Virus record (IMG/VR): IMGVR_UViG_3300045741_000480
Location: 1-32,488 of that record
DNA: 32,488 bases
Direction: 5' to 3' (one strand)
DNA from: a virus
Shown here: piece after piece, positions 2,091 through 30,293 of the stretch
Position numbering within the stretch: position 1 is the stretch's first letter
Layout: every line of letters begins with the position of its first letter
Made by a program: the position numbers and the translations under genes
The notes under the pieces: generated by a model
What the model was told of the DNA's origin: nothing
Seen by the model: the letters and a program-made list of their open reading frames with translations, nothing else
Database searches by the model: none

Positions 2091-3194
2091 ATGACACATC
2101 ATGTTATTAAAACAATTATAAAAAGAAGCCATCATATGGATTGGATTGAGAAGGGAACCATATTGCTTGTTCGCCATGGATCTCATGCTTATGGCACCAA
2201 TACTGCCACCTCTGATGAAGATTTCAAAGGTGTAGCTATACCATCTAAAGAATATTTTTATGGTTATACTAAAAAATTTGAGCAGGCTGAATTAAAAGCT
2301 CCCGATGATGATGTTGTTATTTATGATATTAGAAAGTTTTTTGCCCTTGCATCTGATTGTAATCCAAATATTATAGAAGTTTTACATACTGATCCTTCAG
2401 ATCATTTTGTTGTTACTCCATTGGGGCAAGAAATTTTAGATCATAAAGATGATTTTTTATCTAAAAAAATAAAGCATACTTTTCTTGGATACAGCGTTTC
2501 TCAGTTAAAACGTATAAAAACGCATCGACGTTGGATAATGAATCCTGCGCAAGTTCCGCCAACAAGAGCTTCTCTTGGATTGCCAGAACAAACTTTAATA
2601 CCACAAGATCAGCTTGTCGCAGCATTTTCTGAAGTTCAAAAAGAATTAGATAGAATGCAATTTGATTTTATGGAGAATTTAGAGGAATCAACTAAAATCG
2701 AAATTCGCAACACTATGGCATCTATGTTGGCTGAAATGAAAATTACTACAGATGAGCAATTTGAAGCCGCGGCTCGTAAAATTGGATTAACTGATAATTT
2801 TATTGAACTTATGCAAAAAGAAAGAGCATATACTAATGCTAAACGTGAATGGGATCAATATCAAAATTGGAAGAAAACTCGCAATGCAAAACGAGCTGAA
2901 TTAGAAGAAAAACATAGATATGATACCAAGCATGCATATCATCTTGTTAGATTAATTCGTATGTGTAGAGAGGTATTATTAACTGGTAAAGTAATAGTTA
3001 AACGTCCAGATCGTGAAGAATTGTTAGCCATTAGAAATGGCGCCTGGTCTTATGATCAGTTAATTACTTTTGCAGAAAAAGAAGAAATAGAATTAAATAA
3101 TCTATATAATACAACTAATGTATTGCCAAAAGTTCCTAATAAAGAAAAATTAGATGCTCTTTGCATTAGTTTAGTTGAAAAGTTTTTATCATAA
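2091..3194 (+). CDS. RlaP/YcgL-type nucleotidyltransferase
   Basis: The 367-residue protein has the polymerase-beta superfamily nucleotidyltransferase signature: GSHAYGTNT at residues 30-38, then SDEDFKG with candidate metal-binding acids D42 and D44. This arrangement matches the RlaP/YcgL family of predicted nucleotidyltransferases, which are common in large phages and may modify RNA or nucleotides; the substrate is unknown. The C-terminal two thirds is helical and charged, with HAYHLVRLIRMCREVLLTG typical of the helical half of this family. An internal Met at residue 16 is an alternative start, but ATG 2091 with a weak GAAAG upstream was kept. Its neighbours in an RNA-processing region fit an RNA-directed role. 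Confidence 0.8.
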   Translation: MTHHVIKTIIKRSHHMDWIEKGTILLVRHGSHAYGTNTATSDEDFKGVAIPSKEYFYGYTKKFEQAELKAPDDDVVIYDIRKFFALASDCNPNIIEVLHTDPSDHFVVTPLGQEILDHKDDFLSKKIKHTFLGYSVSQLKRIKTHRRWIMNPAQVPPTRASLGLPEQTLIPQDQLVAAFSEVQKELDRMQFDFMENLEESTKIEIRNTMASMLAEMKITTDEQFEAAARKIGLTDNFIELMQKERAYTNAKREWDQYQNWKKTRNAKRAELEEKHRYDTKHAYHLVRLIRMCREVLLTGKVIVKRPDREELLAIRNGAWSYDQLITFAEKEEIELNNLYNTTNVLPKVPNKEKLDALCISLVEKFLS

Positions 3195-4723: not shown

Positions 4724-5719
4724 ATGAATTATGAGAAAGAAAATTTAGAAACTTTGTTTATTGACAAGTTTGAATTAATAGTTAATAATTTGGTTTTGGA
4801 AAATTTTTCAGAAAATGATATAATTGTTTTTGCAAACACTATAAAAACTTTTCTTAAATTTTATGATATAAGACAATATGTTATGATGGCACTTTATACA
4901 AAAATAAAAGATTTATATAATGCTGCTACAAATTTATCACAAGATCATAACTCATATAGAAAATTAATTAAAGTTATTTTAAGCATCAATGATTATGAAC
5001 TTACTGATGTAATAGAAACTTATTTGGGAAAAAACAAAGATCCAAATTTATTTTTAATTTTTATGGAAGAAAAAATTTCTAAGAATTTAGACACTTCTAA
5101 TCTGGAGAAAATGTTTATTTCATTTTTTAGTATTCATCAATATTCTTATGAAAATATAAATAAGTTCCTATCTTTGTCTAAAAAAGATCCAATATGGTTG
5201 GCATCCATATTATTGGCGCAAAACCAAAACGTCTCAATAAGAAATTATATTCGAAAATTAAATGAATATGATCGTGGCACTTTAAATAAAGTTGTAGATT
5301 TGATTCTTAATCATAAATTTCAAGACACTAATGAATATGTTAATATTGTTGTAGATTTTATGTTAATTGATAATGCCTACACTTATCAGTTACTTAATAA
5401 TAGTCTGTTAAATAAAATAGACTTTTCAATCATTAAAAGATATGTTTTATCTAATTATAGATACAATGTAGAATTAATGTGTAATATATGCGAATATTTG
5501 TCTTCTATTTCTGTAAAAGAAATGGAATCTTTTGAGCAATCTTTTCTTGAATGTACAGATGGCACACTTATTATTAGATATGCTATTAAAAATAAATTAA
5601 GCAATAAAAGACATTGCCTGCAACAATTGGTTAAAATTAGAGATTCAAGAAATGAAGATAATTTAGTTGCATTTATTAATATGTTTCCAGAATATAAATC
5701 ATTGCTTCCCATGCTGTAG
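4724..5719 (+). CDS. hypothetical alpha-helical protein (331 aa)
   Basis: The protein is rich in Leu, Ile, Asn and Lys and appears entirely helical, with no Gly/Pro-rich catalytic loops. It may be a helical-repeat scaffold, but I cannot define a regular period. The ATG follows the previous stop by 2 bases. It ends 36 bases before the AAA+ ATPase gene in the same direction, so the two are probably co-transcribed and this product may be a partner of the ATPase. MoxR-type ATPases usually work with a VWA-domain protein; I see no MIDAS motif here, so this is not an obvious VWA partner. Family unknown. Confidence 0.65.
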   Translation: MNYEKENLETLFIDKFELIVNNLVLENFSENDIIVFANTIKTFLKFYDIRQYVMMALYTKIKDLYNAATNLSQDHNSYRKLIKVILSINDYELTDVIETYLGKNKDPNLFLIFMEEKISKNLDTSNLEKMFISFFSIHQYSYENINKFLSLSKKDPIWLASILLAQNQNVSIRNYIRKLNEYDRGTLNKVVDLILNHKFQDTNEYVNIVVDFMLIDNAYTYQLLNNSLLNKIDFSIIKRYVLSNYRYNVELMCNICEYLSSISVKEMESFEQSFLECTDGTLIIRYAIKNKLSNKRHCLQQLVKIRDSRNEDNLVAFINMFPEYKSLLPML

Positions 5720-5755
5720 TGATTGTTATATACTCATGTGATATTTAAGGAAAAC

Positions 5756-7951
5756 ATGAGTAACTCTCTGAATCTTACAGAAATAGATCAAGAACAAGCG
5801 CTGCATTTAAGTAAATTTTTTATTAGGTCAAATCAAAATTTATTTTTGTTTGGCCGTAGGGGTGTCGGTAAAATGATTGACCTCGAAACCGAATTACCAA
5901 CACCTAGCGGCTTTATTAAGCTTAAAAACTTGAAAGAGGGCGATGAATTATTCGATGAACAAGGAAATATTTGTCATGTAGTTAAGCTACACCCAATAGA
6001 TTATAGGCCTGAATCATATAAAATTACTTTTGATGATGGTAGTATTATTAATGCATGCGCAGATCATCTGTGGTTAACTTGGGACAAGAAGTCAAGAAAA
6101 TCGCATCATAGAGCTAATAATCCAACGATTCATCCACAGATAAGAACAACTAAAGAAATTTTAGAAACATTAAGGACTAATACTTCTAAAAAAGAGACAA
6201 ATCATTCCATACCTTGCGCACAGTCAGTAAAGTATCCTGAGCAAAAATTACCTATTGATCCTTATGTATTGGGCTGCTGGCTTGGAGATGGAAATAGTCA
6301 TAGTGGACATATTGAATGTGCAGATAAAGAAATTTTGGATGAAATTGTAAAACGTGGTTATGATATACATTTAGTAAAATCATCTGTAAGATCGAAATCT
6401 AAAAGTTGTCAATATAGAATTGGTGGCGTAGCCGAATCTTATAAAGATGAATATGGTTTACCACATACAACTTATTTGTTATCAAAACAGCTAAAAGAAT
6501 TAAATTTATTTAAAAACAAACATATTCCTGATATTTACCTTTGTAGTTCATATGAACAAAGGCTCGCTTTACTTCAAGGATTGATGGATACTGATGGGTG
6601 CTGCCTTAAAACTGGACTCATTGAATATTGTACAGTATTGCCAAATTTAGCCTTACAAATTCAAGAATTAATTTCTAGTTTAGGAATTAAGTCTACATTG
6701 CATTGCAATGAAAGTTGGCTTTATGATAAGCGATGCCAAAATAGATTTAGAATCAAAGTGATAACTAAATTACCAATATTTAAACTTGAAAGAAAGATAA
6801 AAAACCTTAAAAAATCCAATAATCAATGCACAAGAAATACTCATAGGTATATTGTTAATATTGAATCAATTTCTCCCGTACCAATGAGATGTATAACAGT
6901 AGATAGTTTTTCTAATTTATTTCTTGTAACACGCTCTTTTATTGCAACACATAATACACATATTGCAATGCAAGCTGCTGAAGAATGTGGCTATAATGTT
7001 AATTATATTAATTTAAGTGTAATAGAAAGGCCAGATTTAGCCGGATATCCTAATATGAATAGTCCGGGAGATATCATAACATTTAAATCGCCAAGTTTTT
7101 TACCTAAACTATTAGATTCAAATAAACCAGATAGCATTATACTTTTTGATGAAGTTGATAAAGCTCCAGTAGAAGTTACTGCACCATTATTAGAAATATT
7201 ACAATTTAAATCAATTAATGGTAATGCAATTAATGTTGCTGGTTGTATTCTTACCGGCAATTTGTCAAATGAGGGCGCCTATTCTAATTTAATATCTACG
7301 GCACTATTAGATAGAGGCGCAAAATATATACTGTCATTTAATTTTGAAAAATGGATTGATTGGGCAAAATTAAATAATGTTCATGATTTAATTTTAGGAT
7401 TTTTAAGAAGTAACCCTGAATTTGCGTGCGGAGATATAGAAGACACTTGTTATGCCAGCCCATCTCCACGTAGTTGGACACTGGCTTCAGAAGCTTTAAA
7501 TAGAGCCCGTGAATTAAAGATTGTTGATATAGAGAGCGTTACTCAAATTATATCTGGATTTGTTGGCGGGGAAGCAGGATTAAGATTTAAAATATGGTAT
7601 GAGCATTATCGTAGATTTGAACCTTATATTCATTCATTAATTGAAAGCGGCATTATGACTTTTGATTTTAATGCGCTGGCACCTACTGAAAAAGTTGTTT
7701 TTGTAGTTTCAGCTTGCTATTATTCTAAGCAAAGAGTTTTAGCAGAATCTGGCAAATCAAAGAATAAATTTGCATATCTAGAGAACCTGTGTAAATTTTT
7801 TACACACTATCAAGTAGATAATGAAGTTCAGGTTATGGGGCTGTATAATTCTTTTGACTTTGTTTTTATTTCTAAACATAAATTATATGCTTGTAAAGAG
7901 TTTTTTGATTTATTTACTAGAATAAATGAACACATATCGATAAAAAAATAA
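5756..7951 (+). CDS. MoxR-like AAA+ ATPase interrupted by a LAGLIDADG intein
   Basis: ATG 5756 has an AAGG ribosome site 5 bases upstream and is preferred to the longer TTG 5723 frame. The precursor is 731 residues. The N-extein is 39 residues ending in the Walker A piece GRRGVGK; then comes a 361-residue intein; the C-extein resumes with THIAMQ, rebuilding GRRGVGKT. The C-extein shows Walker B (SIILFDEVDKA), a sensor-1-like region (GCILTGNLSNEG), an Arg in LLDRGAKY and a sensor-2-like SPRSW. The spliced product would be 370 residues, normal for a MoxR-family ATPase, an ATP-driven remodelling chaperone. Until the intein leaves, the P-loop is split between Lys and Thr, so the unspliced protein should be inactive. 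The co-directional upstream helical gene is a possible partner. Confidence 0.88.
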   Translation: MSNSLNLTEIDQEQALHLSKFFIRSNQNLFLFGRRGVGKMIDLETELPTPSGFIKLKNLKEGDELFDEQGNICHVVKLHPIDYRPESYKITFDDGSIINACADHLWLTWDKKSRKSHHRANNPTIHPQIRTTKEILETLRTNTSKKETNHSIPCAQSVKYPEQKLPIDPYVLGCWLGDGNSHSGHIECADKEILDEIVKRGYDIHLVKSSVRSKSKSCQYRIGGVAESYKDEYGLPHTTYLLSKQLKELNLFKNKHIPDIYLCSSYEQRLALLQGLMDTDGCCLKTGLIEYCTVLPNLALQIQELISSLGIKSTLHCNESWLYDKRCQNRFRIKVITKLPIFKLERKIKNLKKSNNQCTRNTHRYIVNIESISPVPMRCITVDSFSNLFLVTRSFIATHNTHIAMQAAEECGYNVNYINLSVIERPDLAGYPNMNSPGDIITFKSPSFLPKLLDSNKPDSIILFDEVDKAPVEVTAPLLEILQFKSINGNAINVAGCILTGNLSNEGAYSNLISTALLDRGAKYILSFNFEKWIDWAKLNNVHDLILGFLRSNPEFACGDIEDTCYASPSPRSWTLASEALNRARELKIVDIESVTQIISGFVGGEAGLRFKIWYEHYRRFEPYIHSLIESGIMTFDFNALAPTEKVVFVVSACYYSKQRVLAESGKSKNKFAYLENLCKFFTHYQVDNEVQVMGLYNSFDFVFISKHKLYACKEFFDLFTRINEHISIKK
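5873..6955 (+). mobile_element. class 3-like intein with LAGLIDADG endonuclease, inserted in a Walker A motif
   Basis: The intein boundaries follow from restoring GRRGVGK-T and from the C-terminal THN. Block A reads MIDLETELPTPSGF, so residue 1 is Met and not the usual Cys or Ser. Block B is ACADHLWLTW (H65, W67). Block F is MRCITVDSFSNLFLV (C340) and block G is FIATHN (T359, H360, N361), with +1 Thr. Trp in block B, Cys in block F and Thr in block G is the WCT triad of class 3 inteins, which splice without a residue-1 nucleophile. Two LAGLIDADG motifs (YVLGCWLGDG at 131-140, LLQGLMDTDG at 233-242) give a homing endonuclease with intact acidic residues. The frame is uninterrupted, so the element looks active. 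Confidence 0.88.
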
Positions 7952-8002: not shown

Positions 8003-8329
8003 ATGAGTGATGTTGTACATGTAGATGATAATAATTTTGAAACCGAAGTTCTTAAATCTTCAATTCCTGTTTTAGTTGATTTTAGTGCAATATGGTGCGG
8101 CCCATGTCAAAGACAGTTGCCTATTATAGAAAAGTATGCAACTGATAATAAAGACAAAATAAAAGTTTGTAAAATTGATGTTGATGACTCTCCAGATATT
8201 GCAGGCAAATATTCTATTAGAGGCGTGCCAAGCATGCTTCTTTTTAATAAAGGAGAGAAGGTTGATACTAAAGTTGGGTTAGTAAGTTTGTCAGCTTTAG
8301 ATCATTTTGTGTTGGAAAAAATTGGTTAA
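8003..8329 (+). CDS. trxA: thioredoxin
   Basis: The 108-residue protein has normal thioredoxin length. It contains the active site WCGPC (C32, C35) after FSAI, the Asp in VDFSAIW, and the conserved cis-Pro in RGVPSMLLF (P76). It reduces protein disulfides in the cytoplasm; in phages thioredoxin may also support ribonucleotide reductase or phage polymerase. A GAGG ribosome site lies 5 bases before the ATG. It forms a transcription unit of its own, with a promoter at 7959-7986 and a palindromic terminator at 8356-8377. The symbol names the family; no orthologue was checked. Confidence 0.93.
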   Translation: MSDVVHVDDNNFETEVLKSSIPVLVDFSAIWCGPCQRQLPIIEKYATDNKDKIKVCKIDVDDSPDIAGKYSIRGVPSMLLFNKGEKVDTKVGLVSLSALDHFVLEKIG

Positions 8330-10301: not shown

Positions 10302-11120
10302 ATGTCTAAAAATAAATTTCAAAGAATTTGTCAATATTGTAATAAAATTATAAAGTATAAAAACTATAATTCTTTTTTTATGGCTAATAAACGAAATAGT
10401 GGATGCTATTCATGTAAAGCAAAAGGTGAGAGAAATTCTTTTTATGGTAAAAAACACTCACAAGAAACTAAAGATACAATATCAAATTTTAATTCTAATA
10501 TAAGAATTTTATCTGATGAGTTCATTAAAAAGGCTAAAAAAAACTTATCTAAAGTAACTAACAAGCGCCCGTTATATGATATTTGGATAGAAAAATATGG
10601 GAAAGAAATTGCAGATCAAAAACTGCAATCTTTTAAAATTAAACAATCAATCAATAATTCTGGAATTAATAATCCTATGTTTGGAAAACCATCACCACAA
10701 GGGAGTGGTAATGGTTGGTCAGGGTGGTATAAAAATTGGTATTTTCGATCTATTCGTGAGCTATCTTATATGATCAAAATATTAGAGAAACAACAATTGA
10801 CTTGGAAAATTCCTGACAAGAATTTTAAGATACCATATATAGATTATGCCGGGCAACATAGAACATATTTTCCAGATTTTATTGTAAATGAAACTCGTTT
10901 GATAGAAATTAAGCCAAGTAAATTACACAAAACACCAAAAGTTTTAGCTAAACGAAAGGCAGCCGAAGCTTTTTGTCAAAATAAAAATATGACTTATGAA
11001 ATAATTGATCCAGAATTATTAAGTGATAGTGAAATTAAATCACTATACATTAATGATCAAATAAAGTTCATAAAAAAATATGATAAAAAATTTAGAGAAA
11101 GGTTCATTGAAAATGCTTAA
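10302..11120 (+). CDS. PD-(D/E)XK homing endonuclease with zinc finger and NUMOD3 motifs
   Basis: The 272-residue protein begins with a zinc-finger-like region (C10, C13, C35, C38). NUMOD3-type repeats follow (NSFYGKKHSQETK near 45-57 and NNPMFGKPSPQG near 123-134). The C-terminal nuclease domain has E153 in RSIRELSYM, then YFPDF (P191, D192), then LIEIKPS (E202, K204), which together form a PD-(D/E)XK active site. This combination fits freestanding phage homing endonucleases of the PD-(D/E)XK class. Its 3' end overlaps the start of the T4-type kinase gene by 8 bases, so that gene's start lies inside it. It follows a decayed segment. HNH or GIY-YIG motifs are absent. Confidence 0.8.
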   Translation: MSKNKFQRICQYCNKIIKYKNYNSFFMANKRNSGCYSCKAKGERNSFYGKKHSQETKDTISNFNSNIRILSDEFIKKAKKNLSKVTNKRPLYDIWIEKYGKEIADQKLQSFKIKQSINNSGINNPMFGKPSPQGSGNGWSGWYKNWYFRSIRELSYMIKILEKQQLTWKIPDKNFKIPYIDYAGQHRTYFPDFIVNETRLIEIKPSKLHKTPKVLAKRKAAEAFCQNKNMTYEIIDPELLSDSEIKSLYINDQIKFIKKYDKKFRERFIENA

Positions 11121-12374: not shown

Positions 12375-12402
12375 TTGACACGCAATTTTATATGATTAGA
12401 TT
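12375..12402 (+). promoter_or_regulatory. candidate sigma-70-like promoter, now upstream of an inserted endonuclease
   Basis: TTGACA at 12375-12380 is followed after 16 bases by TAGATT at 12397-12402. The layout equals the promoters at 7959 and 19436. It overlaps the 3' end of the minus-strand LAGLIDADG gene and points towards the RNA ligase gene at 13177, about 775 bases away, as if the endonuclease had been inserted between promoter and gene. Confidence 0.45.
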
Positions 12403-13136
12403 TGTGAATAGAAGTTATTCTTTTTTCTATCCATGAAAATTGTAGCATCATCATATAAATATTGAAACATTTTTTTAATATCATTTTTTTTATATATGAC
12501 TATTCTATGGCCATTAGTACCTTGAGTATAAATATGTAATTTTAATTTAGTTTCTAGTTCAATTATTTTTTTTATTTCTGTAATAAAAGATTTAGAAACA
12601 CTATATATGCTCCATGTTTTATTTCCAGTTTTTTTATGAATATAAATACAACCATCTCCATCAAAGAAACCACGAATAAAATGTCTTACTAAAAATTTTG
12701 GTATTTGTTTTGAATATTGTAGAGTATAAGATTTATTTTTTATACATCCTAATTCAGAAAGCTTTTTACACATATAACGACTTGACAAACCTAATAGCAC
12801 CATTTCACTATCTAATCTTTTTCTTCGTGAAATGATTTGTGTAGCATTTAAATCTTTTTTCATTTTTAATAAATGATCTTCATCTTTAGCAGATATTTCA
12901 ATTTTTAATTCGTTATTTGTATTACTACCATCAGCCATACAAAATCCAAGCCAATAAGCTTTATTTTCTAAATTGATTTCATCAAAAAAATGTTCATCAA
13001 ATGAATATTTTTTAGTAGCATATTTAGAGCATTGTTTGGAGCAATATTTGCCGCCGCCTCGTTTTTCATAAGCGATATTTTTTAAAATAAATTCTTTTTT
13101 GCAATGAAAGCATTGTCTGATATATTGTGTCATCAT
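12396..13136 (-). CDS. LAGLIDADG homing endonuclease with N-terminal zinc finger
   Basis: The 246-residue protein has two LAGLIDADG motifs: AYWLGFCMADG at residues 60-70 and FIRGFFDGDG at 153-162. Each ends in the acidic metal-binding residue, which makes it a monomeric two-motif enzyme. An N-terminal Cys4 finger (C9, C12, C32, C36) precedes them. It lies on the opposite strand to the flanking genes, between the small gene ending at 12350 and an RNA ligase gene starting 40 bases away. This is a typical position for a freestanding homing endonuclease that invaded an intergenic site. It contains no stops, so it is probably functional. Confidence 0.85.
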   Translation of the reverse strand: MMTQYIRQCFHCKKEFILKNIAYEKRGGGKYCSKQCSKYATKKYSFDEHFFDEINLENKAYWLGFCMADGSNTNNELKIEISAKDEDHLLKMKKDLNATQIISRRKRLDSEMVLLGLSSRYMCKKLSELGCIKNKSYTLQYSKQIPKFLVRHFIRGFFDGDGCIYIHKKTGNKTWSIYSVSKSFITEIKKIIELETKLKLHIYTQGTNGHRIVIYKKNDIKKMFQYLYDDATIFMDRKKNNFYSQI

Positions 13137-13176: not shown

Positions 13177-13953
13177 ATGCCAAAATTACCCAGGACATTA
13201 CATTTAGAAGGTTCGCGTCTCAAGCCAGGAGAATCCGATCCAGATGCAAAAGAATTTAATAAATTGGCTGGACAATTTCTAGTCATAGAAGAAAAGGTCG
13301 ATGGCACTGGCGTTTCTATTAGTTTAGATAATCATTGGAATTTCATTATTGAACATCGTGGTTCAGCAGCTTCTTCAAAGGAATTTAACCTTTTGCACGA
13401 TTGGGCCGACAAACATTGGGAAGATCTTCTAATGTTATTGGGCGAGCGCTACGTATTGTTTGGCGAATGGATGTACAATAAGCATACAATATTTTATGAT
13501 AATTTACCACATTTCTTTTTAGAATCAGATATTTATGATAAAGAAAGAGAAGTTTGGTTATCTACATCAGCTCGTAATAATTTACTTAAAGATCATAATT
13601 ATATTAAACAAGTTCCAGTATTAGCTGCTTTTAAACCATCTGCATTGTGGCAGATTACAAACCTTATAAATAAAACCAATTTTCAATCTAAAAATTGGAA
13701 GGAAACTTTAAAAGAAAAATGTTTAATGATGGGAATTAATTTAGAAAAATCTTTAAAAGAAACTGATCAATCTGGGTTAATGGAAGGTTTATATATTAAA
13801 CATGAAGATGATTTTAAAGTTATTGGAAGATATAAATATGTTAGATATGAATTTTTACAATCAATTTTAAATTCAGAAACTCATTTGATAGATAGAGTTA
13901 CAATTAATAATTGTTTAATTAATGATAAATTTAGTTACAAGGCGGGTGAATAA
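13177..13953 (+). CDS. RNA ligase family protein (first of three)
   Basis: The 258-residue protein has nucleotidyltransferase motifs of the ATP-dependent RNA ligase family: motif I EEKVDGTG with the candidate adenylated lysine K40, motif III YVLFGEWMY near 95-105, motif IV MEGLYIK near 220 and motif V-like IGRYKYVR just after. There is no OB-fold or DNA-ligase extension, and the size fits an Rnl2-like or PF09414-type ligase. It would seal 5'-phosphate and 3'-OH RNA ends made by the kinase/phosphatases. It is transcribed divergently from the endonuclease gene, and no strong ribosome site precedes the ATG. Confidence 0.83.
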   Translation: MPKLPRTLHLEGSRLKPGESDPDAKEFNKLAGQFLVIEEKVDGTGVSISLDNHWNFIIEHRGSAASSKEFNLLHDWADKHWEDLLMLLGERYVLFGEWMYNKHTIFYDNLPHFFLESDIYDKEREVWLSTSARNNLLKDHNYIKQVPVLAAFKPSALWQITNLINKTNFQSKNWKETLKEKCLMMGINLEKSLKETDQSGLMEGLYIKHEDDFKVIGRYKYVRYEFLQSILNSETHLIDRVTINNCLINDKFSYKAGE

Positions 13954-14606: not shown

Positions 14607-15836
14607 ATGTTACTTGTTCAAAAATTTTTAGAAAATCATACCTTCAAAGAGCTTCAAGAGCAACATGGGGTTTATGCTTCTTTTTCAAAATCTGGTTACA
14701 AATTCTCATTGAATTACGATCAAATTGAAGCGAAAGAAACTGATCCATTAGCTCAAGAATGCAGAGGACTAATCTTGTCTAGTGAAGATGGATCTCCATT
14801 TCAATTTGTTGAAATAAATGGTAAAAGAAATTATGATCACATTTGTCCCGGTAAAACTAAAATTTTAGCTTATCCTATGAAAAGATTTTTTAATTATGGA
14901 CAAGGCTGCGCGGTTGATATTAATTGGGCAGATCCAAATCTTGCTGTTCTTGAAAAGTTAGACGGAACTCTTTGCATTGTTTATTTAGATCCATTTATTG
15001 TAAAGTGGTGTGTTGCCACCAGATCAGTTCCAGAAGCCGATCTTCTTATGGATAATGGTATTTTTACATTTAGAACTTTATTTGAAAAGGCATTTGCAGA
15101 AACTACCGGATATGATTTTAATGGACCAGTTGGAGACTTAAGGCCTAATTGGACTTATTGTTTTGAATTAACTACTCCTTACAATAGGATTGTAGTTAAT
15201 TATCCAAATAATGGCGTTACTTTATTGGCAATTAGAGATATCAATACTTTAAAGGAAATTGACCCCCACGATGGCATGAGTATTGATTTAATACCTAAAA
15301 TGCCAATCGCACAGGCACATACGTACGTGTCTGTGGATGAGCTTATAGGTTGGGTATCAACTTTAAACCCAATGGAACATGAAGGTGTTGTTGTTAGAGA
15401 CTCCAAATTCAATCGTATTAAAGTTAAAAACGCAGCCTATGTTGCGTATAACAGAGTGCGAGAAACTCTTGGAGCTTCTGAGCGCAACATCATGGAATTG
15501 ATTTTATCAGAAAAAGATGATGATGTTGTTCCATTTTTGCCAGAAGAAATTGCTAAAAATCTTTATAAAATAAAAGTCGGCACACTTGCTGCCATTAAAA
15601 AGCATGATGAAAATTATCAGGCTGCATTAGCAGAAGCTAATAGTATTAAGCCTGGCGACAAAAAAACATTTGCCGTACTTGTTACTAAAAATAAAGATTT
15701 GTGGTCATCTCCGTTTTTCTCTATGTTTGATGGTAAAGCGGCAAACATGAGAGAGTTTATTTTTAACAATAAAAAAGAGGGAACTTGGGCAAATGGATTT
15801 CTTGATAAAATGTTGGAGATATCAAGAAAAGTTTGA
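14607..15836 (+). CDS. T4 Rnl1-like RNA ligase (second of three)
   Basis: The 409-residue protein is close in size to T4 RNA ligase 1 (374 residues). It has ECRGLIL at 51-57, matching the Arg-containing segment upstream of motif I in Rnl1. Motif I is LEKLDGT with lysine K117. Motif III-like YCFELTT, motif IV HEGVVVRD and motif V-like IKVKN follow. A C-terminal helical domain of about 100 residues (from about 290) corresponds to the Rnl1 C-terminal domain that recognises tRNA. The expected role is re-sealing of tRNA cut by anticodon nuclease after end healing. It starts immediately at the previous stop. Confidence 0.87.
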   Translation: MLLVQKFLENHTFKELQEQHGVYASFSKSGYKFSLNYDQIEAKETDPLAQECRGLILSSEDGSPFQFVEINGKRNYDHICPGKTKILAYPMKRFFNYGQGCAVDINWADPNLAVLEKLDGTLCIVYLDPFIVKWCVATRSVPEADLLMDNGIFTFRTLFEKAFAETTGYDFNGPVGDLRPNWTYCFELTTPYNRIVVNYPNNGVTLLAIRDINTLKEIDPHDGMSIDLIPKMPIAQAHTYVSVDELIGWVSTLNPMEHEGVVVRDSKFNRIKVKNAAYVAYNRVRETLGASERNIMELILSEKDDDVVPFLPEEIAKNLYKIKVGTLAAIKKHDENYQAALAEANSIKPGDKKTFAVLVTKNKDLWSSPFFSMFDGKAANMREFIFNNKKEGTWANGFLDKMLEISRKV

Positions 15837-16433: not shown

Positions 16434-17156
16434 ATGAACAAGTACTTATTTGATAGTGATTTCAGCGAAGATTCTTTAAGATGGCTTAAAATACGAGAAA
16501 ATATAAATTTTAATAACCAAAATAAAGACAATAGCGAAATTCTTGAAAAATTACAAGAACAAATTATAAATAATAATGATTGTGCATTGGCTTACTTTTT
16601 TGCAACTGAATTTTTATATAAATCATATAAAATGCAAAAGGTTATTCTAGATAATAAAAATGCTAAATATGCTTTCTTATTTGCGCAAAACATTAAAAAT
16701 TGCGATATAAAAGCGCTACAAAAATTAGTATTGGAATCTAAAAAAACAAAATATATATGTAGGTTTGCTTGTTTTGTTAAGGGCGCTGATAAAAATCATT
16801 TAGAATCTATAATACTTAAATCAAAAAATGTTAAATATGCGCACATGCTGTTAAAACATATAAAGGGTTCAGACTTTAAAAAGTTTAAAAGTATTATAAT
16901 AGAATCAGGAAAGCCAAGATATTTATTTGAATTAGCAAAACATACAAATAATTTAAAAGAAATAGAAGAGATTGAAAATTTAATTATTGAATCAAAATCA
17001 TTTACTTATATGAGATTATTTGCTGAAAAGATAAAACTTGCTAATGTTGAAAAGATAGAGCAAGCAGTTTTAGATTCTGATAATGTTAATGAGATAAAAA
17101 AGTTTGCTAAATATGTTAAGCGCTCTAAAATGAAAAAATTCTTTTTAGTTCTTTAA
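16434..17156 (+). CDS. helical protein with 28-residue tandem repeats
   Basis: Residues 71-240 consist of six repeats of 28 residues (one is 29). Each starts with a pattern like I-L-[E/D/K]-S-[K/N], followed by KY or a variant, then FAxxIK and a D/N-K-x-L/I-E-x-I helix. The repeat heads are at residues 72, 100, 128, 156, 185 and 213. The N-terminal 60 residues are charged and probably a cap. The repeats suggest an extended solenoid of paired helices, but I do not recognise the family. The gene ends overlapping the minus-strand protease gene by 12 bases. Confidence 0.7.
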   Translation: MNKYLFDSDFSEDSLRWLKIRENINFNNQNKDNSEILEKLQEQIINNNDCALAYFFATEFLYKSYKMQKVILDNKNAKYAFLFAQNIKNCDIKALQKLVLESKKTKYICRFACFVKGADKNHLESIILKSKNVKYAHMLLKHIKGSDFKKFKSIIIESGKPRYLFELAKHTNNLKEIEEIENLIIESKSFTYMRLFAEKIKLANVEKIEQAVLDSDNVNEIKKFAKYVKRSKMKKFFLVL

Positions 17157-17744
17157 TTTAGACACATCGCAATGATAAAGGCTGCAAAATTGTTTTAAAT
17201 CTTTTTCAGTTATTGTTTCTGAGCCAATATCTATAGTTGGATACATTAAAGTATTAAATCCATTTGCGCCAACTAAATGCTGCAAACCAAGAGAGTGACC
17301 TAATTCATGAAGAACTACTTGTTCATAAGTATAATCATTAAGCCTGTCTGTAACTAATGATATTGTTGATAGGCCATATTTAGTATCATAATATCCAAGA
17401 GTTATATTATTCTTAACATTATCCATTACAATTATTTCTGGACTATCTGGAGATACTTTAACCATAAACAGTCCATTTTCCGCATCAATTTTTTCATTTG
17501 TTGGTAATTGTACTACATCATATTCTACTATATGATTTGTAGCCTTGCTCCATTTAATGGCAGCAGTAATTATTATTTCTTGTTCATAGTCATAAAAATT
17601 ACGATCTATATAAATCGTTGTATGTATATGATTTGGATATACTTTTGGTTGTTTATAAATATCAGAAGCAAATACAAATAAATATATTAAAATAATAAAT
17701 GATGATAATAAGTTAAAATAATTTAGCCCATGAAATAATTTCAT
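17145..17744 (-). CDS. matrixin-type (M10-like) zinc metalloprotease, membrane-anchored or secreted
   Basis: The 199-residue protein has the metzincin signature HELGHSLGLQH (H146, E147, H150, H156) and a downstream Met-turn LMYP (M167), which together bind zinc and define matrixin-like peptidases. An N-terminal hydrophobic stretch (residues 10-28) would act as a signal anchor, and a Cys pair lies near the end (C187, C192). It is the only non-selfish gene on the minus strand here and converges with the repeat-protein gene. ATG 17744 was taken over an upstream TTG at 17750. A possible role is cleavage of surface or periplasmic proteins during infection; the substrate is unknown. Confidence 0.8.
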   Translation of the reverse strand: MKLFHGLNYFNLLSSFIILIYLFVFASDIYKQPKVYPNHIHTTIYIDRNFYDYEQEIIITAAIKWSKATNHIVEYDVVQLPTNEKIDAENGLFMVKVSPDSPEIIVMDNVKNNITLGYYDTKYGLSTISLVTDRLNDYTYEQVVLHELGHSLGLQHLVGANGFNTLMYPTIDIGSETITEKDLKQFCSLYHCDVSKLKN

Positions 17745-17764
17745 TAACAACTCGTTCTATCTGC

Positions 17765-17793: not shown

Positions 17794-17810
17794 AATTATT
17801 GAGATACAAT

Positions 17811-18488
17811 ATGAATTCTCCCAAATATAATAGAACTATGCATTTACCATGGAGTAAAGGCGCAACAAATGACGATAAAATTGCTACGTCTATTGAAAAC
17901 TTAATTGGCGCACCTATTGTCATTACAGAAAAAATCGATGGAAGTAATACGTCGTTAGAGCGCGAAGGTTGTTTTGCAAGGACTCATTCTGGTCCGCCTA
18001 ATCATCCATCATTTAATGGATTAAAAGCTTTGCATGCCGCTCTTAAGTATAAAATACCAGCAGGCATTCAATTTTTTGGAGAGTGGTGTTATGCCTTACA
18101 CTCTATTGCATATGATGCTTTACCAGGATATTTTTTAATGTTTGGCGTTAGAGAATATTATGCTATTGAAGATTTTTCTAAAGCTCAATGGTATTCTTGG
18201 GATGATGTTGAATTAATGGCTAATAATATGGGCCTGCCAACTGTTCCAGTATTATTTACTGGAACCGTTTCTTCTGAAAAAGAATTAAAAGAATTAACTG
18301 AATCTTTTATGATAGAACGTTCTGTTTGTGGCGGTATAAGGGAGGGTGTAGTTGTTAGAGTTCAACGAGATTTTAAAGATGAAGAGTTTTCTTCATGTAT
18401 TATGAAATGTGTTAGGGCTAATCATGTAACTACAGACGAACATTGGGCACATAAAATGATTGTTACCAACAAACTTAAATTAAAATAA
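17811..18488 (+). CDS. RNA ligase family protein (third of three)
   Basis: The 225-residue protein has RNA ligase motif I TEKIDGSN with candidate lysine K41, motif III FFGEWCY near 87-93, motif IV REGVVVRV near 175-182 and motif V MKCVRANH near 193-200. It is a compact core without C-terminal extension, like small Rnl2-type phage ligases. It differs in motif I context from the other two ligases (KVDG and KLDG), so it is not a recent duplicate. ATG 17811 follows a weak GAGA; a TTG at 17799 is less likely. It may be specialised for a different RNA break. Confidence 0.82.
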   Translation: MNSPKYNRTMHLPWSKGATNDDKIATSIENLIGAPIVITEKIDGSNTSLEREGCFARTHSGPPNHPSFNGLKALHAALKYKIPAGIQFFGEWCYALHSIAYDALPGYFLMFGVREYYAIEDFSKAQWYSWDDVELMANNMGLPTVPVLFTGTVSSEKELKELTESFMIERSVCGGIREGVVVRVQRDFKDEEFSSCIMKCVRANHVTTDEHWAHKMIVTNKLKLK

Positions 18489-20878: not shown

Positions 20879-21355
20879 ATGCCCATAGAAACTAATTTAT
20901 TATCTTATTTAGCGGGATTTATTGATGCTGATGGATCAATTTCAATAGTAAAAACATCTTATTTTGACAAACAACTTAATAGAAAGAGATTTCAATATAG
21001 AATAAAACTTAGTGCTCATAATTGCAAAATCGAAGCGGTAAAAGTTTTTCAAGATACTTTTGGTGTAGGAAAATTAAGAGATAATAGAACGAGAAAAATA
21101 TTAAAAGATAATCCTAAATGGCGCCCATGTTATGAATGGACACTTTGGAGCAATCAAGCTCAAAAAGCAATAGAATCTATGTTGCCATTTTTGCGTATTA
21201 AAAAGCCACAAGCGCTGTTGGCATTAGAGCTACAAAATTTTAGGCATCAATTTGGAACTAATGATTTCAAGAAAGCTGATGTAAAAGAAAACTGTGAAAA
21301 AGTTTTTGCAGAATTAAAAGAAAAATGTATTCTTTTAAATAAAAGGGGCCAATGA
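20879..21355 (+). CDS. single-motif LAGLIDADG homing endonuclease
   Basis: The 158-residue protein has one clear LAGLIDADG motif, YLAGFIDADG at residues 10-19, followed by GSISIVK. Single-motif members act as homodimers. A basic region with KLRDNRTRKILK and a WTLWSNQAQKAIESMLPFLRIKKPQA segment follow, as in phage and intron-encoded members. A strong GGAGG site lies about 9 bases upstream. The stop overlaps the start of the macro-domain gene (ATGA at 21352-21355). It sits between the HEAT-like gene and the macro gene, probably inserted there. Confidence 0.85.
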   Translation: MPIETNLLSYLAGFIDADGSISIVKTSYFDKQLNRKRFQYRIKLSAHNCKIEAVKVFQDTFGVGKLRDNRTRKILKDNPKWRPCYEWTLWSNQAQKAIESMLPFLRIKKPQALLALELQNFRHQFGTNDFKKADVKENCEKVFAELKEKCILLNKRGQ

Positions 21356-22712: not shown

Positions 22713-23306
22713 ATGAGGATGAATATATCAGATACTGGATTTTGGGATGCACAAACTGCCCATTTATTTCATGGACATTCGCAACCATTAGTTGAATGGA
22801 TCGCCAAATTTTTAGAAAATGATAAGGAGAAACAACTTTATGATTTTGGATGTGGCACTGGACAATATTTAAAAAGATTACAAGATGCCGGATTTAAAAA
22901 ATTAATTGGTTTTGAAGGAGACCCTCCAGTTCAAAGAGAGTTTCAAGACATTAGAAAATTAGATCTAACTACATCATTTGTTTTACCCGAAAAAGGTAAT
23001 GTAGTTTGTCTTGAAGTTGCTGAACATATTCCTGCCCAATTTGAAAGCGTGTTTCTTGATAATTTAGCAAATGCTTGTGATGGTAAGTTAATTATGTCAT
23101 GGGCAGTTAGAGGTCAAGGCGGAGATGGACATGTTAATTGTTTAAATAATAATGAAGCAATTGATAGGGTAATTGCAAAAGGTTTTGTTTATTTGCCAAA
23201 TGAAACTGAAGCTGTAAGAGCAACAATTGATCCTGTTGCAAATGATATTCCAACTGGGCAATTACCTTGGTTTAAAAATACTACTTTAGTTTTTAAGAAG
23301 GTTTAA
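22713..23306 (+). CDS. SAM-dependent methyltransferase (glycan cluster start)
   Basis: The 197-residue protein has methyltransferase motif I LYDFGCGTGQYLK (GCGTG at residues 46-50), an acidic strand-2 end in IGFEGDPP, and VVCLEVAEHIP in the motif III region. This fits a class I SAM-dependent methyltransferase of the small-molecule or sugar type. An AAAGGA ribosome site precedes the ATG. The stop is shared with the start of the next glycosyltransferase gene, so it begins the translationally coupled glycan run. Confidence 0.8.
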   Translation: MRMNISDTGFWDAQTAHLFHGHSQPLVEWIAKFLENDKEKQLYDFGCGTGQYLKRLQDAGFKKLIGFEGDPPVQREFQDIRKLDLTTSFVLPEKGNVVCLEVAEHIPAQFESVFLDNLANACDGKLIMSWAVRGQGGDGHVNCLNNNEAIDRVIAKGFVYLPNETEAVRATIDPVANDIPTGQLPWFKNTTLVFKKV

Positions 23307-24112
23307 TGTTTTACTTAACACTAGGCTCTTGTTTAAAAAACGAAGAGCCTTACATGTTAGATTTTGTAAAATATCATAGATCTGTTGGCGTAGAAAAATT
23401 TGTATTTTTTGACAGAAACTATGAAGCAATGCATAATATGTTCGCTAATGATCATGATGTCGAAATTATTCATTTCCCAGATATTGAAGGTAATACACAT
23501 CAAGAGGCTTGGGGCCAATTAATAAAATATAATCAAGGTAAAACAAAATGGTTGGCTTTAATTGATGCTGATCAGGCGCTAGTTCCAGTAAAAAAAGATG
23601 ATGTTAAAGATATTTTAAAAGATTATGAAGAGTTTGCTAATCTTCAATTAAATTGGAAGTCTTTTGGATCAGGACATCAAGAAACAAGATTGCCAGGATC
23701 TGTGTATGAAAGATTTTTAATGACTTGTAAAGACGATTGTTTTTATAATGCTCATACGCAGTTCATATGTCAACCAGATAGAACGCTTCCTATTAAAACT
23801 GCCGAGCCACATTACCCATTTTTACCTGAAGGTGAAATAAGCGTTAATACAAACAAAGAACAAATTGATGCTCAAAAAAAAGTTGATTTAAATTTAAATA
23901 CACCACTTTCATTTAATGTTCCGCCACTTCATGATGTAATGTGGGTGGCCCACTATACAAATAAATCAAAAGAAGAGTGGATGATTAAAAATGCAAAAGG
24001 TAGGGCAGATATTTTTGGCGTCAAAATGCCAATTCATCAGTTTGATGAATATGAATCTCAATGTAATGAGTTGTGTGAAGATAGAGTATTAGAGCTTTGG
24101 AATAAAAAATGA
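23306..24112 (+). CDS. GT92/DUF23-like glycosyltransferase
   Basis: The 268-residue protein begins LGSCLKNEEPYMLDFVKYHRSVGVEKF, with the KNE..Y..EW/F..YH pattern of GT92-like transferases. It has a DXD-type acidic cluster, LIDADQALVP (D87, D89), which binds metal and nucleotide-sugar, and a later SGHQETRLPGSVYERF region. It is a soluble GT-A enzyme. Overlaps on both sides (TAATG before, ATGA after) tie it to its neighbours. Confidence 0.8.
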   Translation: MFYLTLGSCLKNEEPYMLDFVKYHRSVGVEKFVFFDRNYEAMHNMFANDHDVEIIHFPDIEGNTHQEAWGQLIKYNQGKTKWLALIDADQALVPVKKDDVKDILKDYEEFANLQLNWKSFGSGHQETRLPGSVYERFLMTCKDDCFYNAHTQFICQPDRTLPIKTAEPHYPFLPEGEISVNTNKEQIDAQKKVDLNLNTPLSFNVPPLHDVMWVAHYTNKSKEEWMIKNAKGRADIFGVKMPIHQFDEYESQCNELCEDRVLELWNKK

Positions 24113-24549
24113 TTATTATTGCTCATCGAGGAAATCTTAATGGCCCAAATCCTGATAAAGAAAATCATCCAGATTATATTGAAGAGGCTTTAAAAGCAGG
24201 ATTTGATGTAGAAATAGATGTTTGGTGTATTAATGGGCAATATATTCTTGGACATGATAAACCTCAATATGAGGTTAGTTACGAATTTATTTCAAATATT
24301 AAATTATGGCAACATTGTAAAAATATTACAGCACTTACTAATTTAGTAGAATCAATTGAATATTTAGATGTCCATTGTTTTTATCATAATACAGATGACG
24401 TTACCCTTACAACAAATTGTTGGTTATGGACTTATCCAGGAAAAGAGATAACAAAAAACTCTATTGCTGTTATGCCAGAAAGGGTTCCTGGTTGGGATAT
24501 TTCTAAAGCAGCTGGTGTCTGTACCGATTTTCCATACAAATACAAATGA
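24109..24549 (+). CDS. GDPD-like phosphodiesterase-fold protein (short)
   Basis: The 146-residue product starts MIIIAHRGN with the HR of the glycerophosphodiester phosphodiesterase fold, followed by VEIDVW (E35, D37) and YILGHD (H49), the typical metal and catalytic residues. Family members are usually 240 or more residues, so this one is short; the active-site set is present but the barrel is probably incomplete or compressed. It could remove a phospho-glycerol or phospho-sugar substituent from a glycan. ATGA overlaps lie at both ends. Confidence 0.7.
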   Translation: MIIIAHRGNLNGPNPDKENHPDYIEEALKAGFDVEIDVWCINGQYILGHDKPQYEVSYEFISNIKLWQHCKNITALTNLVESIEYLDVHCFYHNTDDVTLTTNCWLWTYPGKEITKNSIAVMPERVPGWDISKAAGVCTDFPYKYK

Positions 24550-24878
24550 AGAAATTTTCTCTTAATGAAATGTTTAAAGGGTGGTTTGTGGGTCATTTTA
24601 ATCCAACTATTATAGATACTAATGATGTAGAAGTTGCCATTAAACGTTACAATAAAAATGATTATGAAGACTTACATCATCACAAAATTGCGACAGAAAT
24701 TACAGTAATTATTGATGGATATGTAGAAATGAATAGCACTATATATGCACCAAATGATATTATAGTTATTATGCCCGGCGAATCAACAAATTTTAAATGT
24801 TTAACAGATAATGTAATAACTTGTGTTATTAAATATCCTGGCGCTAACAATGATAAATATATTGATGGATATGCGTAA
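24546..24878 (+). CDS. cupin-fold protein
   Basis: The 110-residue protein has a cupin motif 1-like EDLHHHKIATEITVIIDG (His 44-46, E51) and a second motif-like DIIVIMPGES. The length and motifs fit a single cupin domain, as found in sugar epimerases or isomerases (FdtA/RmlC-like) or in small regulators. The start overlaps the previous stop and the stop touches the next ATG (24879). Within a glycan operon a sugar-modifying role is likely but not proven. Confidence 0.7.
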   Translation: MKKFSLNEMFKGWFVGHFNPTIIDTNDVEVAIKRYNKNDYEDLHHHKIATEITVIIDGYVEMNSTIYAPNDIIVIMPGESTNFKCLTDNVITCVIKYPGANNDKYIDGYA

Positions 24879-25502
24879 ATGAAATTAGGAATATTATTTA
24901 ATGGCGTATCGTATGGATTTAGCAGAAATTGTTTTCATTGCTTTCAAAATCAAAAACAATTTCTAATTGATCCATTTAAAAATAATAATGATGTTAAAAT
25001 ATATTTATCATCTTATACTAGTGATCGTACAAGCGATATAATTAATTTATATTTACCAACATTATATAATTTTTCAAATATAGATGGATCTCATCAAATA
25101 CTTACTTATATTAAGGGTTTAGAATTGATTAAAAATCAAAATTTAGATTTTGTTATATCTACTAGATTTGATATTCATTTTAATCAAATAATAGCTAATA
25201 TTAATTTTGATTATAATAAATTCAATGCTCTTTTTAAAGAAAGAGGTTGGTGGGATAATATGAAATTTACAACTGATAATATGTTTGCATTTCCATATAA
25301 TATGTTAGATGATTTTATATCTGTTTTACATGAACTTTATCAAAATCCATCTAGACTGGGGCAAACAGATATGCATCAAGCTTTTTATAGAGTCAAAAAT
25401 AGAATAGGTGAATCTAATACACATATAGTATCACCAATTGATGAATTAAGTAATACAAATTTATTTTATTCACTATGTAGCGATAAATGGGGAATTAAAT
25501 GA
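24879..25502 (+). CDS. putative glycosyltransferase-like protein
   Basis: The 207-residue protein begins MKLGILFNGVSYGFSRN, and an acidic strand FVISTRFDIHFN lies near residue 90. That arrangement (start MK-x-x-I-x-x-x-G and later RFD or RPD) is also found in the gene at 26775 and in phage or bacterial proteins of glycan clusters. I read it as a GT-A-like transferase with weak DXD, but the family is not certain. It ends with an ATGA overlap to the next methyltransferase gene. Confidence 0.55.
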   Translation: MKLGILFNGVSYGFSRNCFHCFQNQKQFLIDPFKNNNDVKIYLSSYTSDRTSDIINLYLPTLYNFSNIDGSHQILTYIKGLELIKNQNLDFVISTRFDIHFNQIIANINFDYNKFNALFKERGWWDNMKFTTDNMFAFPYNMLDDFISVLHELYQNPSRLGQTDMHQAFYRVKNRIGESNTHIVSPIDELSNTNLFYSLCSDKWGIK

Positions 25503-26077
25503 CTAGAACTCAACTTTTACAAAATCTTATTCAAATATTTGGTTATAAATCGTATTTAGAAATTGGATGCGCTAATGACTGGAATTTTAATCAAATAACG
25601 GCCCCACTTAAAGTTGGAGTTGAACCTCATCCACATCATGGTGGAACAGTAAAAATGACTAGTGATGAATTTTTCGCAACCAATACTCAAAAATTTGATT
25701 TAATTTTTATTGATGGCTTACATATAAGCGATCAAGTAGACAAAGATATTCAAAACTCATTAAAATATCTTAATGATAATGGAACGATAGTAATGCATGA
25801 TTGTAATCCTGCTGGAGAAGAAAATCAAAGACAATACGTAGTTGTTAGTGATTGGAATGGCGACTGTTGGAAATCTTTTGTTAAGGCACGAAGTTTTGAT
25901 AATGTGGATGCTGCCGTAGGAGATTTTGATCATGGCTGCGGGGTTTTAAGAGTAAGGCCAAATTCAAAACAAATTAAAGTAGATGAGTCTTTATTTACTT
26001 GGGATAATTTTGCAGTTAATCGTCAAGAGTGGTTGCGCCTTATGTCTTTTCAAGATTTATTAAATTGGGTGCGATAA
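25499..26077 (+). CDS. SAM-dependent methyltransferase (Methyltransf_24-like)
   Basis: The 192-residue protein has motif I YLEIGCANDWNF (residues 19-30), VGVEPHPHH as the strand-2 region, LIFIDGLHISDQVDKDI as motif II, and TIVMHDCNP. This pattern fits class I methyltransferases of the Methyltransf_24 group, frequent in polysaccharide operons. A sugar or lipid O-methylation role is inferred. Its stop is shared with the next glycosyltransferase start. Confidence 0.8.
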   Translation: MTRTQLLQNLIQIFGYKSYLEIGCANDWNFNQITAPLKVGVEPHPHHGGTVKMTSDEFFATNTQKFDLIFIDGLHISDQVDKDIQNSLKYLNDNGTIVMHDCNPAGEENQRQYVVVSDWNGDCWKSFVKARSFDNVDAAVGDFDHGCGVLRVRPNSKQIKVDESLFTWDNFAVNRQEWLRLMSFQDLLNWVR

Positions 26078-26775
26078 TGAGCAATTTTAATATAACAGTA
26101 ATTATACCAGTACTAAATAGACCAAAAAATGTTGAAACATTTATTAATTCTTTTGTAAAAAATACTGATACTAGTAGGGCCGATTTATTATTTGTTACTA
26201 GTGCATCATGTCAAGAAGAGATCCAAGAAATAAATAAATTTACAGGAAATATTACAGTTGCTATTGCGCCAGATGATGTAATATCTTGGGGCAAAAGAAT
26301 TAATTGGGGAATAAATTATTCTAATACACATCATCACTTTTCGACACCAGCCCCTTGGATTTTATGCTGCGCTGATGATGTTGTTTTTCATCCTAATTGG
26401 TTTGAAGAGGCTGAAAAAGCTTCTGTAAATTTTGATGGAATTATTGGCACCAATGATTTGGGTCATCCAGCAACAATTGGTGGCTGGCATACTACTCATC
26501 CTATTGTTAGTAGAAATTATGTAATGACACAAGGTACAATGGATGAAGTTGGAAAATTTTGTCATGAAGAATATTTTCATAATTATGTTGATGTAGAAAT
26601 GGTCCATACGGCTATGAAACGTGGCGCTTGGAAACATGTGCCTCAATGTATTATAGAGCATATTCATCCGGCTTGGAATAAAGCTTTATGGGATGATGTT
26701 TATGAAAAAGGACAAGAAAAAATGCCGCTTGATAGAGACCTTTGGACTTTAAGAAAACAAAAATTTGGTCTTTAA
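26077..26775 (+). CDS. family 2-type glycosyltransferase
   Basis: ATG 26077 overlaps the previous stop (TAATG); a longer frame from 26029 would overlap the methyltransferase and was not used. The 232-residue protein begins NITVIIPVLNRPKNVE, typical of GT-A family 2. The acidic pair in ILCCADDVVFHPNWFEEA (D100, D101) corresponds to the DXD metal site. Later HEEYFHNYVDVEM carries probable catalytic acids. It is expected to be soluble and to transfer one sugar from a nucleotide-sugar donor. Confidence 0.83.
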   Translation: MSNFNITVIIPVLNRPKNVETFINSFVKNTDTSRADLLFVTSASCQEEIQEINKFTGNITVAIAPDDVISWGKRINWGINYSNTHHHFSTPAPWILCCADDVVFHPNWFEEAEKASVNFDGIIGTNDLGHPATIGGWHTTHPIVSRNYVMTQGTMDEVGKFCHEEYFHNYVDVEMVHTAMKRGAWKHVPQCIIEHIHPAWNKALWDDVYEKGQEKMPLDRDLWTLRKQKFGL

Positions 26776-27494
26776 TGAAAATAGCAATTTGTTTAAGTGG
26801 AGCAATGTCAAAATTAGGCAATAGATTTATTGCCCCAGATTCATTATACAATAATTCGCCTTATATAAATTTTAATATTTGTTTTAATTCAACTAAAAAA
26901 CACATTATAGAGGCTAATGCAAATTGTAAATTTGATTTTTTTATTCATTCTTGGAATTTAGATTTAAAAAATGATTTAGAAAAATTGTATTGTCCAATAA
27001 AAAGTTCTTTTGAAGATAATTTAATTTATAAAGAAGAAATAAATAAAAAAATTAAATCTAATGAAGATTATGCTGGAATAAGCAAATCACTTTCTATGCA
27101 AAAAAGCATTAAATTATTAGAAGAATATAATTCAAATTATGATTTAATAATGATTTATAGACCAGATATTTTGCTGCTAAAAAATATTATATTTAATAAA
27201 TACGATTTGAATAGAATATATGTTAATACATATGCAAATGGCCAAGGTGATTTTCATTTTATTATGAATTATGAAAATTTAAAAAAATTTAAATATCTCT
27301 ATAATTCTATAGAACAAGGAAATTTACATAAAACTCATTTTTGGATTAAAAATTATGTAAATAATTTCATGTGTCAAGATCTTGTAGAAGATGAAATAAT
27401 AGCAGGGCAAGATCAAGAAGTATTAAGAAAAGTATCAGACAAAATAAACACAACTATTAATCCCGAGGTATTATTACAATATGGATCAAAATAA
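26775..27494 (+). CDS. putative glycosyltransferase-like protein
   Basis: ATG 26775 shares its first base with the previous stop. The 239-residue protein starts MKIAICLSGAMSKLGNRF, has FDFFIHSWNLDLK near residue 56, and YDLIMIYRPDILLLKNI near 122, with a possible acidic metal site in RPD. The pattern (MKIAICLSG..., F-x-H-S/T-W, R-x-D) fits uncharacterised GT-A-like proteins from capsule or LPS clusters, and resembles the gene at 24879. The overlap with the next gene is 14 bases. Confidence 0.6.
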   Translation: MKIAICLSGAMSKLGNRFIAPDSLYNNSPYINFNICFNSTKKHIIEANANCKFDFFIHSWNLDLKNDLEKLYCPIKSSFEDNLIYKEEINKKIKSNEDYAGISKSLSMQKSIKLLEEYNSNYDLIMIYRPDILLLKNIIFNKYDLNRIYVNTYANGQGDFHFIMNYENLKKFKYLYNSIEQGNLHKTHFWIKNYVNNFMCQDLVEDEIIAGQDQEVLRKVSDKINTTINPEVLLQYGSK

Positions 27495-28209: not shown

Positions 28210-28227
28210 TCTACTTTTAAGGAATAA

Positions 28228-30287: not shown

Positions 30288-30293
30288 GGTAAA

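Follow-up and report, generated by a model that had tools for sequence, protein, structure and literature searches.

The window analysed here is a 32,488-base stretch from an IMG/VR virus record that starts 5.7 kb upstream of a gene for a putative MoxR-like AAA+ ATPase, the Walker A motif of which is split by an intein. An uninterrupted open frame on the + strand (5723–7951) opens at TTG 5723; the likelier start is ATG 5756 (AAGGAAAACATG), which has AAGGA just 5' of it and is the equivalent of the Met at which the relatives begin. Computed from this frame, the precursor from ATG 5756 has 731 residues and the product after splicing 370, in agreement with the original prediction. The features of the gene are as follows:

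5756–7951, + strand: precursor gene, MoxR-like AAA+ ATPase with the intein inside (open frame, AAGGA, start shared with relatives)
5756–5872, + strand: N-extein, 39 residues, ending in the Walker A residues GRRGVGK (intein-free homologous loci)
5873–6955, + strand: intein, 361 residues, M1 to N361, between the Lys and the Thr of GRRGVGKT (intein-free alleles, alignment, profile, fold)
5873–5911, + strand: block A, MIDLETELPTPSG; residue 1 is the Met at 5873–5875 (alignment of 20 inteins)
6050–6073, + strand: block B, NACADHLW; C62 is position B:7 (6056–6058), H65 B:10 and W67 B:12 (alignment)
6260–6832, + strand: LAGLIDADG homing endonuclease domain, residues 130–320 approximately (Pfam LAGLIDADG_3, PI-SceI matches)
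6266–6292, + strand: LAGLIDADG motif 1, VLGCWLGDG, intact in the window intein
6569–6598, + strand: LAGLIDADG motif 2, LLQGLMDTDG, intact in the window intein
6881–6928, + strand: block F, PMRCITVDSFSNLFLV; M338 is F:2 (6884–6886) and C340 is F:4 (6890–6892), the presumed nucleophile (alignment)
6935–6955, + strand: block G, SFIATHN, with T359, H360 and N361 (alignment)
6956–7951, + strand: C-extein, 331 residues plus stop; Thr+1 is the Walker A Thr (intein-free homologous loci)

A scan with the C-extein recovered 19 viral loci that contain this ATPase gene. The loop is uninterrupted in 16 of these (a few being near-duplicate contigs) and reads GRRGVGKT in most, with GRRGTGKT or GQKGVGKT in a few. 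Because these homologous loci read through the loop, both intein junctions are exact, and the details proposed for the insert (361 residues between Lys and Thr, Met1, a THN end, W67, C340 and T359) were all found to be exact as well; a start elsewhere at a Cys, Ser or Ala, which would have refuted the reading, does not arise, as the intein-free alleles fix the start at Met. The remaining three loci carry an intein at exactly this point (L025, the L006 contig; L029, corresponding to L004; and L036), and the inteins of L006 and L036 begin with Met like that of the window, whereas L004 has Gln. Insertion between the Lys and Thr of a P-loop is the classic intein site (PMC5050341).

Assignment to the class 3 inteins was borne out by the WCT triplet, profile matches and the predicted fold. 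With Met1 fixed by the intein-free alleles there is no Cys, Ser or Thr nucleophile at residue 1, while W67, C340 and T359 occupy positions B:12, F:4 and G:5; in the alignment of 20 inteins T6, P11, H65, W67, C340, T359, H360 and N361 are invariant, which supports the proposal that the block F Cys, C340, is the presumed nucleophile. A profile of 20 relatives matches the solved class 3 inteins MchDnaB1 (6rix, 2.1e-33) and Msm DnaBi1 (6bs8, 6.7e-31) in two stretches around the endonuclease (for 6rix, profile positions 2–71 and 306–342), and matches of this strength show that the intein pattern of the insert is not due to chance; the same profile also matches PI-SceI across the endonuclease part. 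In a fold search the predicted structure of the intein (mean pLDDT 90.9) aligned along its entire length with PI-SceI (TMq up to 0.77), and it also matched the splicing domains of the class 3 inteins 6rix and 6bs8 (TMt 0.84–0.85). The spacing of 21 residues from C340 to N361 equals that from the block F Cys to the final Asn in the Msm and Mle DnaB inteins (C118–N139 and C124–N145), and the positions of H65 and W67 match too (PMC5222942). Position B:7, for which Asp has been given as the typical class 3 residue, is Cys62: judged from the aligned sequences this does not exclude class 3, as other B:7 residues are common in the family. We found no tested class 3 intein with the combination Met1-Cys62-Met338 in the literature searched.

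Compared with known systems, Msm DnaBi1 (6bs8) and MchDnaB1 (6rix/6riy) resemble the window intein in HINT fold, WCT triplet, H65/W67 positions, THN end, P-loop insertion before a +1 Ser/Thr and, for Msm, the 21-residue Cys-to-Asn spacing; however, the solved mycobacterial DnaB inteins are without endonuclease and reside in DnaB, whereas the window intein includes a complete LAGLIDADG domain and interrupts a MoxR-like protein, and Msm DnaBi1 exhibits Ala1 and Asp at B:7 in place of Met1 and Cys62 (with Met338). PI-SceI, the yeast VMA intein, shares the two-domain build of splicing domain and LAGLIDADG endonuclease but uses class 1 chemistry with Cys1 and is only ~14% identical in the structural alignment. 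Large terminase subunits of phages also contain class 3 inteins (PHROGs 36964, 19299 and 15); these belong to the same family as the window intein over their whole length, carry a LAGLIDADG endonuclease and in many cases sit at a Walker A Lys/Thr or Lys/Ser junction like that of the window, although their host gene is another one and residue 1 mostly differs from Met. The nearest GenBank phages, e.g. Rhodobacter phage RcDurkin, are 36% identical.

From sequence comparison and structure prediction we consider it very likely that the window holds a full-length class 3 LAGLIDADG intein, mobile in the Walker A codons of a giant-phage MoxR-like ATPase gene, that splices with C340 acting first and Met1 in a non-chemical role, and that spreads by homing. 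In the proposed route, C340 would attack the Lys-Met1 peptide bond to give a branched thioester, the Walker A Thr (+1) would take over the N-extein by transesterification, and cyclisation of N361, aided by H360, followed by an acyl shift would leave a seamless 370-residue ATPase. Met1 would stay outside this chemistry and fill the residue-1 pocket, where Cys62 and Met338 would stand in for the usual Asp and Val, whilst the endonuclease would cut intein-free alleles and repair would copy the intein gene in. That the intein is instead degenerate, pseudogene-like and inactive, as Arth_1007 was shown to be, is very improbable: the non-standard block B (C62) and Met1 would fit such a state, but the catalytic residues are all retained, dN/dS across the intein (~0.09) points to purifying selection and, apart from the insertion, the gene is intact and conserved; Arth_1007, by contrast, had lost the block F Cys and the block B His (PMC3196547). 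The window intein is a real class 3 homing intein of known kind and is probably active. Met1 could also serve as an internal translation start, yielding free intein or endonuclease besides the precursor, as ATG encodes residue 1 in three alleles at the ATPase site (window, L006 and L036). We give this reading hardly any credence: the upstream GGCCGTAGGGGTGTCGGTAAA has no AAGGA like that at ATG 5756, its sequence being dictated by the Walker A codons, inspection by eye gave no Shine-Dalgarno-like support 5' of Met1, L004 has Gln1 at the same site, and residue 1 covaries with active-site residues (see below), which a start codon would not explain.

In order to place Met1 among class 3 inteins, viral and bacterial sequences were sampled in several ways. 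The DNA pattern GK/M...T...TP.G (slash, junction) returned 59 loci from viruses, almost all of which encode class 3 inteins that retain the block F Cys and the THN end, and Met1 occurs in 28 of 88 clusters (80% identity) of a joint, Met-enriched set from viral contigs. In a residue-1-blind viral sample (n = 57) residue 1 is Ala in 38, Gln in 8, Gly in 4, Met, Leu and Glu in 2 each and Asp in 1; among 63 clusters from bacterial genomes, drawn by endonuclease motifs only, it is Ala in 59 and Met in none. Across these samples Met1 is a recurrent minority state, mainly viral. The expectation that a Met at this position is unusual did not hold, as it recurs in viruses in combination with a B:7 Cys and an F:2 Met, and the 28 Met1 clusters among viral class 3 inteins rule out a unique oddity.

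The identity of residue 1 is linked to two further positions. For residue 1, B:7 and F:2, 132 representatives include 53 Ala-Asp-Val, 25 Met-Cys-Met, 9 Gln-Cys-Met and 6 Gln-Gly-Met; large residues at position 1 go with Cys/Gly at B:7 (46/7 against 4/75) and with Met at F:2 (50/3 against 3/76), both by Fisher tests that ignore kinship. The Met1-targeted search enriches Met1 and leaves B:7 and F:2 free of selection; one of three search patterns favours Cys62, and the blind samples avoid that pattern. Of 50 representatives in the viral sample that was blind to residue 1, 45 adopt one of the two settings, and the bacterial non-Ala exceptions conform too (two Leu-Gly-Met). On a tree with the three positions masked (a quick build with many weak branches) no fewer than 13 changes on branches with good support are required to explain the Met label, and on average 6.2 independent pairs associate Cys62 with Met1 whilst 0.0 oppose the association (median p 0.03); the remaining pairings point in the same direction, with supported pairs too few for significance. 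Covariation of residue 1, B:7 and F:2 (Ala-Asp-Val versus Met/Gln/Leu-Cys/Gly-Met) is thus present in the sequences sampled and is an observation new here. Published accounts give block B of class 3 as DxxH (PMC6195587, PMC12245125), and in Msm DnaBi1 the Asp at residue 62 lies close to Ala1 (PMC6195587); with two covarying settings, "DxxH" therefore fits only one of two active-site settings, and in the subfamily of the window intein Cys is nearly invariant at B:7. We lean towards two coordinated class 3 settings that have been switched several times: one combines a small residue 1 with a B:7 Asp (or Ser) and an F:2 Val, Thr or Ser, the other a large residue 1 (Met, Gln, Leu or Glu) with Cys/Gly and Met, respectively, at these two positions. 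The first residue would lie in a packed pocket against B:7 and F:2, a contact that we infer from the covariation observed, and a Cys at B:7 near the block F Cys might make the site redox-responsive. Such linked change suggests a way in which class 3 inteins tolerate bulky first residues and bears on engineering them for other N-terminal junctions.

The endonuclease part exceeds the Pfam cut-off for LAGLIDADG_3 (PF14528), and both motifs, intact as originally described, retain the catalytic Asp. Comparison of the window and L006 reveals 89.4% DNA identity for the intein (dS 0.48, dN 0.043) and 76.2% for the exteins (dS 1.6, dN 0.14), with identity falling beyond both intein junctions. A dS of 0.48 in the intein against 1.6 in the host gene indicates intein transfer between two diverged host alleles, although the ratio is rough, with extein dS near saturation, and recent transfer rests on this one close allele. 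In the endonuclease part dN/dS is ~0.07 (dN 0.032, dS 0.47), a low value that points to selection keeping the endonuclease. By these comparisons, the intein moved recently and is probably active. Two other inteins at this site have a damaged endonuclease, the catalytic Asp being absent from motif 2 in L004 (LLDTKG) and from motif 1 in L036 (WLGKG): read from their sequences, the empty, endonuclease-intact and endonuclease-broken alleles are stages of a homing cycle, all readable here at a single gene site. The same intein subfamily, 53–64% identical to the window intein, interrupts the Walker A motif in a helicase-loader-like gene (L002/L003, L069) and is also present in terminases (L005, at the end of a GK tripeptide), with the insertion preceding Thr at each site. 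The phages carrying these copies are related and of 350–450 kb; one related record of 353,765 bp holds three nearly full-length members of the subfamily, and in the L002/L003 record the ATPase gene itself is empty (L031/L032).

Seven class 3 intein matches each, some partial, were seen in the related giant-phage records L036/L098 (353,765 bp) and L069 (266,228 bp). The window itself encodes three free-standing homing endonucleases in 32 kb (158–835, − strand; 12396–13136, − strand; 20879–21355, + strand), one GIY-YIG with NUMOD3 and two LAGLIDADG, and hence the genome is rich in mobile endonucleases. The frame at 10302–11120 combines a NUMOD3 DNA-binding motif and a TnsA-like endonuclease domain in one chain, an uncommon make-up for a possible homing endonuclease.

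Turning to the host protein, intein-free homologues match AAA_5 and AAA (L041 matches PF07728, AAA_5, at 2e-6, over the cut-off), the interrupted protein matches phrog_1297 'ATPase' (8e-34), and the AAA_3 match to the host reaches only 0.03; an NCBIfam search gave no family over its cut-off. The ATPase fold model is poor (pLDDT 66.9), and its structural matches, CbbQ and NorQ among them, show an AAA+ fold only. PF13203 (DUF2201_N), the metallopeptidase-like part of the vWA partner, is encoded in all eight relatives tested, in several ~4–14 kb from the ATPase, and some relatives are labelled MoxR-like in phage records. Given these matches, record names and the metallopeptidase-like gene nearby in relatives, the label MoxR-like AAA+ ATPase appears reasonable, and the proposed MoxR-like P-loop host is supported. 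A search of the 32-kb window for the metallopeptidase-like part found no PF13203 gene: the vWA-type partner of the window ATPase would lie outside this fragment or be absent. In jumbo phages a MoxR and metallopeptidase-vWA cochaperone pair has been proposed for virion assembly (PMC7824862); the AAA+ ATPase and DUF2201_N gene of the eight relatives resemble this pair, whilst the window differs in its intein-interrupted ATPase and in the place of the partner, and by analogy the host ATPase may serve in virion assembly. No earlier report of an intein in a MoxR gene was found in the literature searched, mostly without subscription papers. The window intein extends class 3 inteins to a phage MoxR-like chaperone ATPase. 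The gene before the ATPase (4724–5719) has no family match above cut-off and is present in two of eight relatives (34% and 24% identity).

A P-loop intein disrupts RadA ATPase function, as quoted in PMC6195587, and splicing would therefore be needed for activity; by this analogy the need for splicing is a consequence of the insertion site and not evidence of regulation. The suggestion that splicing acts as a post-translational control of the ATPase found no support beyond P-loop logic: as a mobile element that most alleles lack, the intein can be dispensed with, and we found no regulatory feature specific to the intein. A regulatory switch, in which splicing is held until a signal such as a reducing environment and the ATPase is then turned on, possibly through a C62-C340 disulfide, is unlikely. 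Its appeal lies in the precedent of Msm DnaBi1, a P-loop intein of the same class that a disulfide between Cys48 and Cys118 blocks (PMC6195587), in the position of the conserved C62, equivalent to that of Asp62 close to residue 1 in DnaBi1, and in a thioredoxin gene (8003–8329) directly downstream of the ATPase. However, a thioredoxin gene also neighbours most intein-free ATPase genes, which rules out a link of this gene to the intein, most alleles are without the intein, Cys at B:7 tracks the identity of residue 1 and has a structural explanation, and class 3 inteins with LAGLIDADG have been suggested to splice constitutively (PMC7891396).

Elsewhere in the window, RNA-repair genes at 2091–3194, 13177–13953, 14607–15836 and 17799–18488 comprise an RlaP-type nucleotidyltransferase and an RNA_lig_T4_1 ligase (Pfam), the frames at 13177 and 17799 being RNA-ligase-like by eye. 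A Matrixin-like (M10) zinc metallopeptidase is encoded at 17145–17750 on the − strand, opposite to its neighbours, and a run of glycosyltransferase-, methyltransferase- and sugar-nucleotide-like frames, recognised by eye only, occupies 23306–32414.
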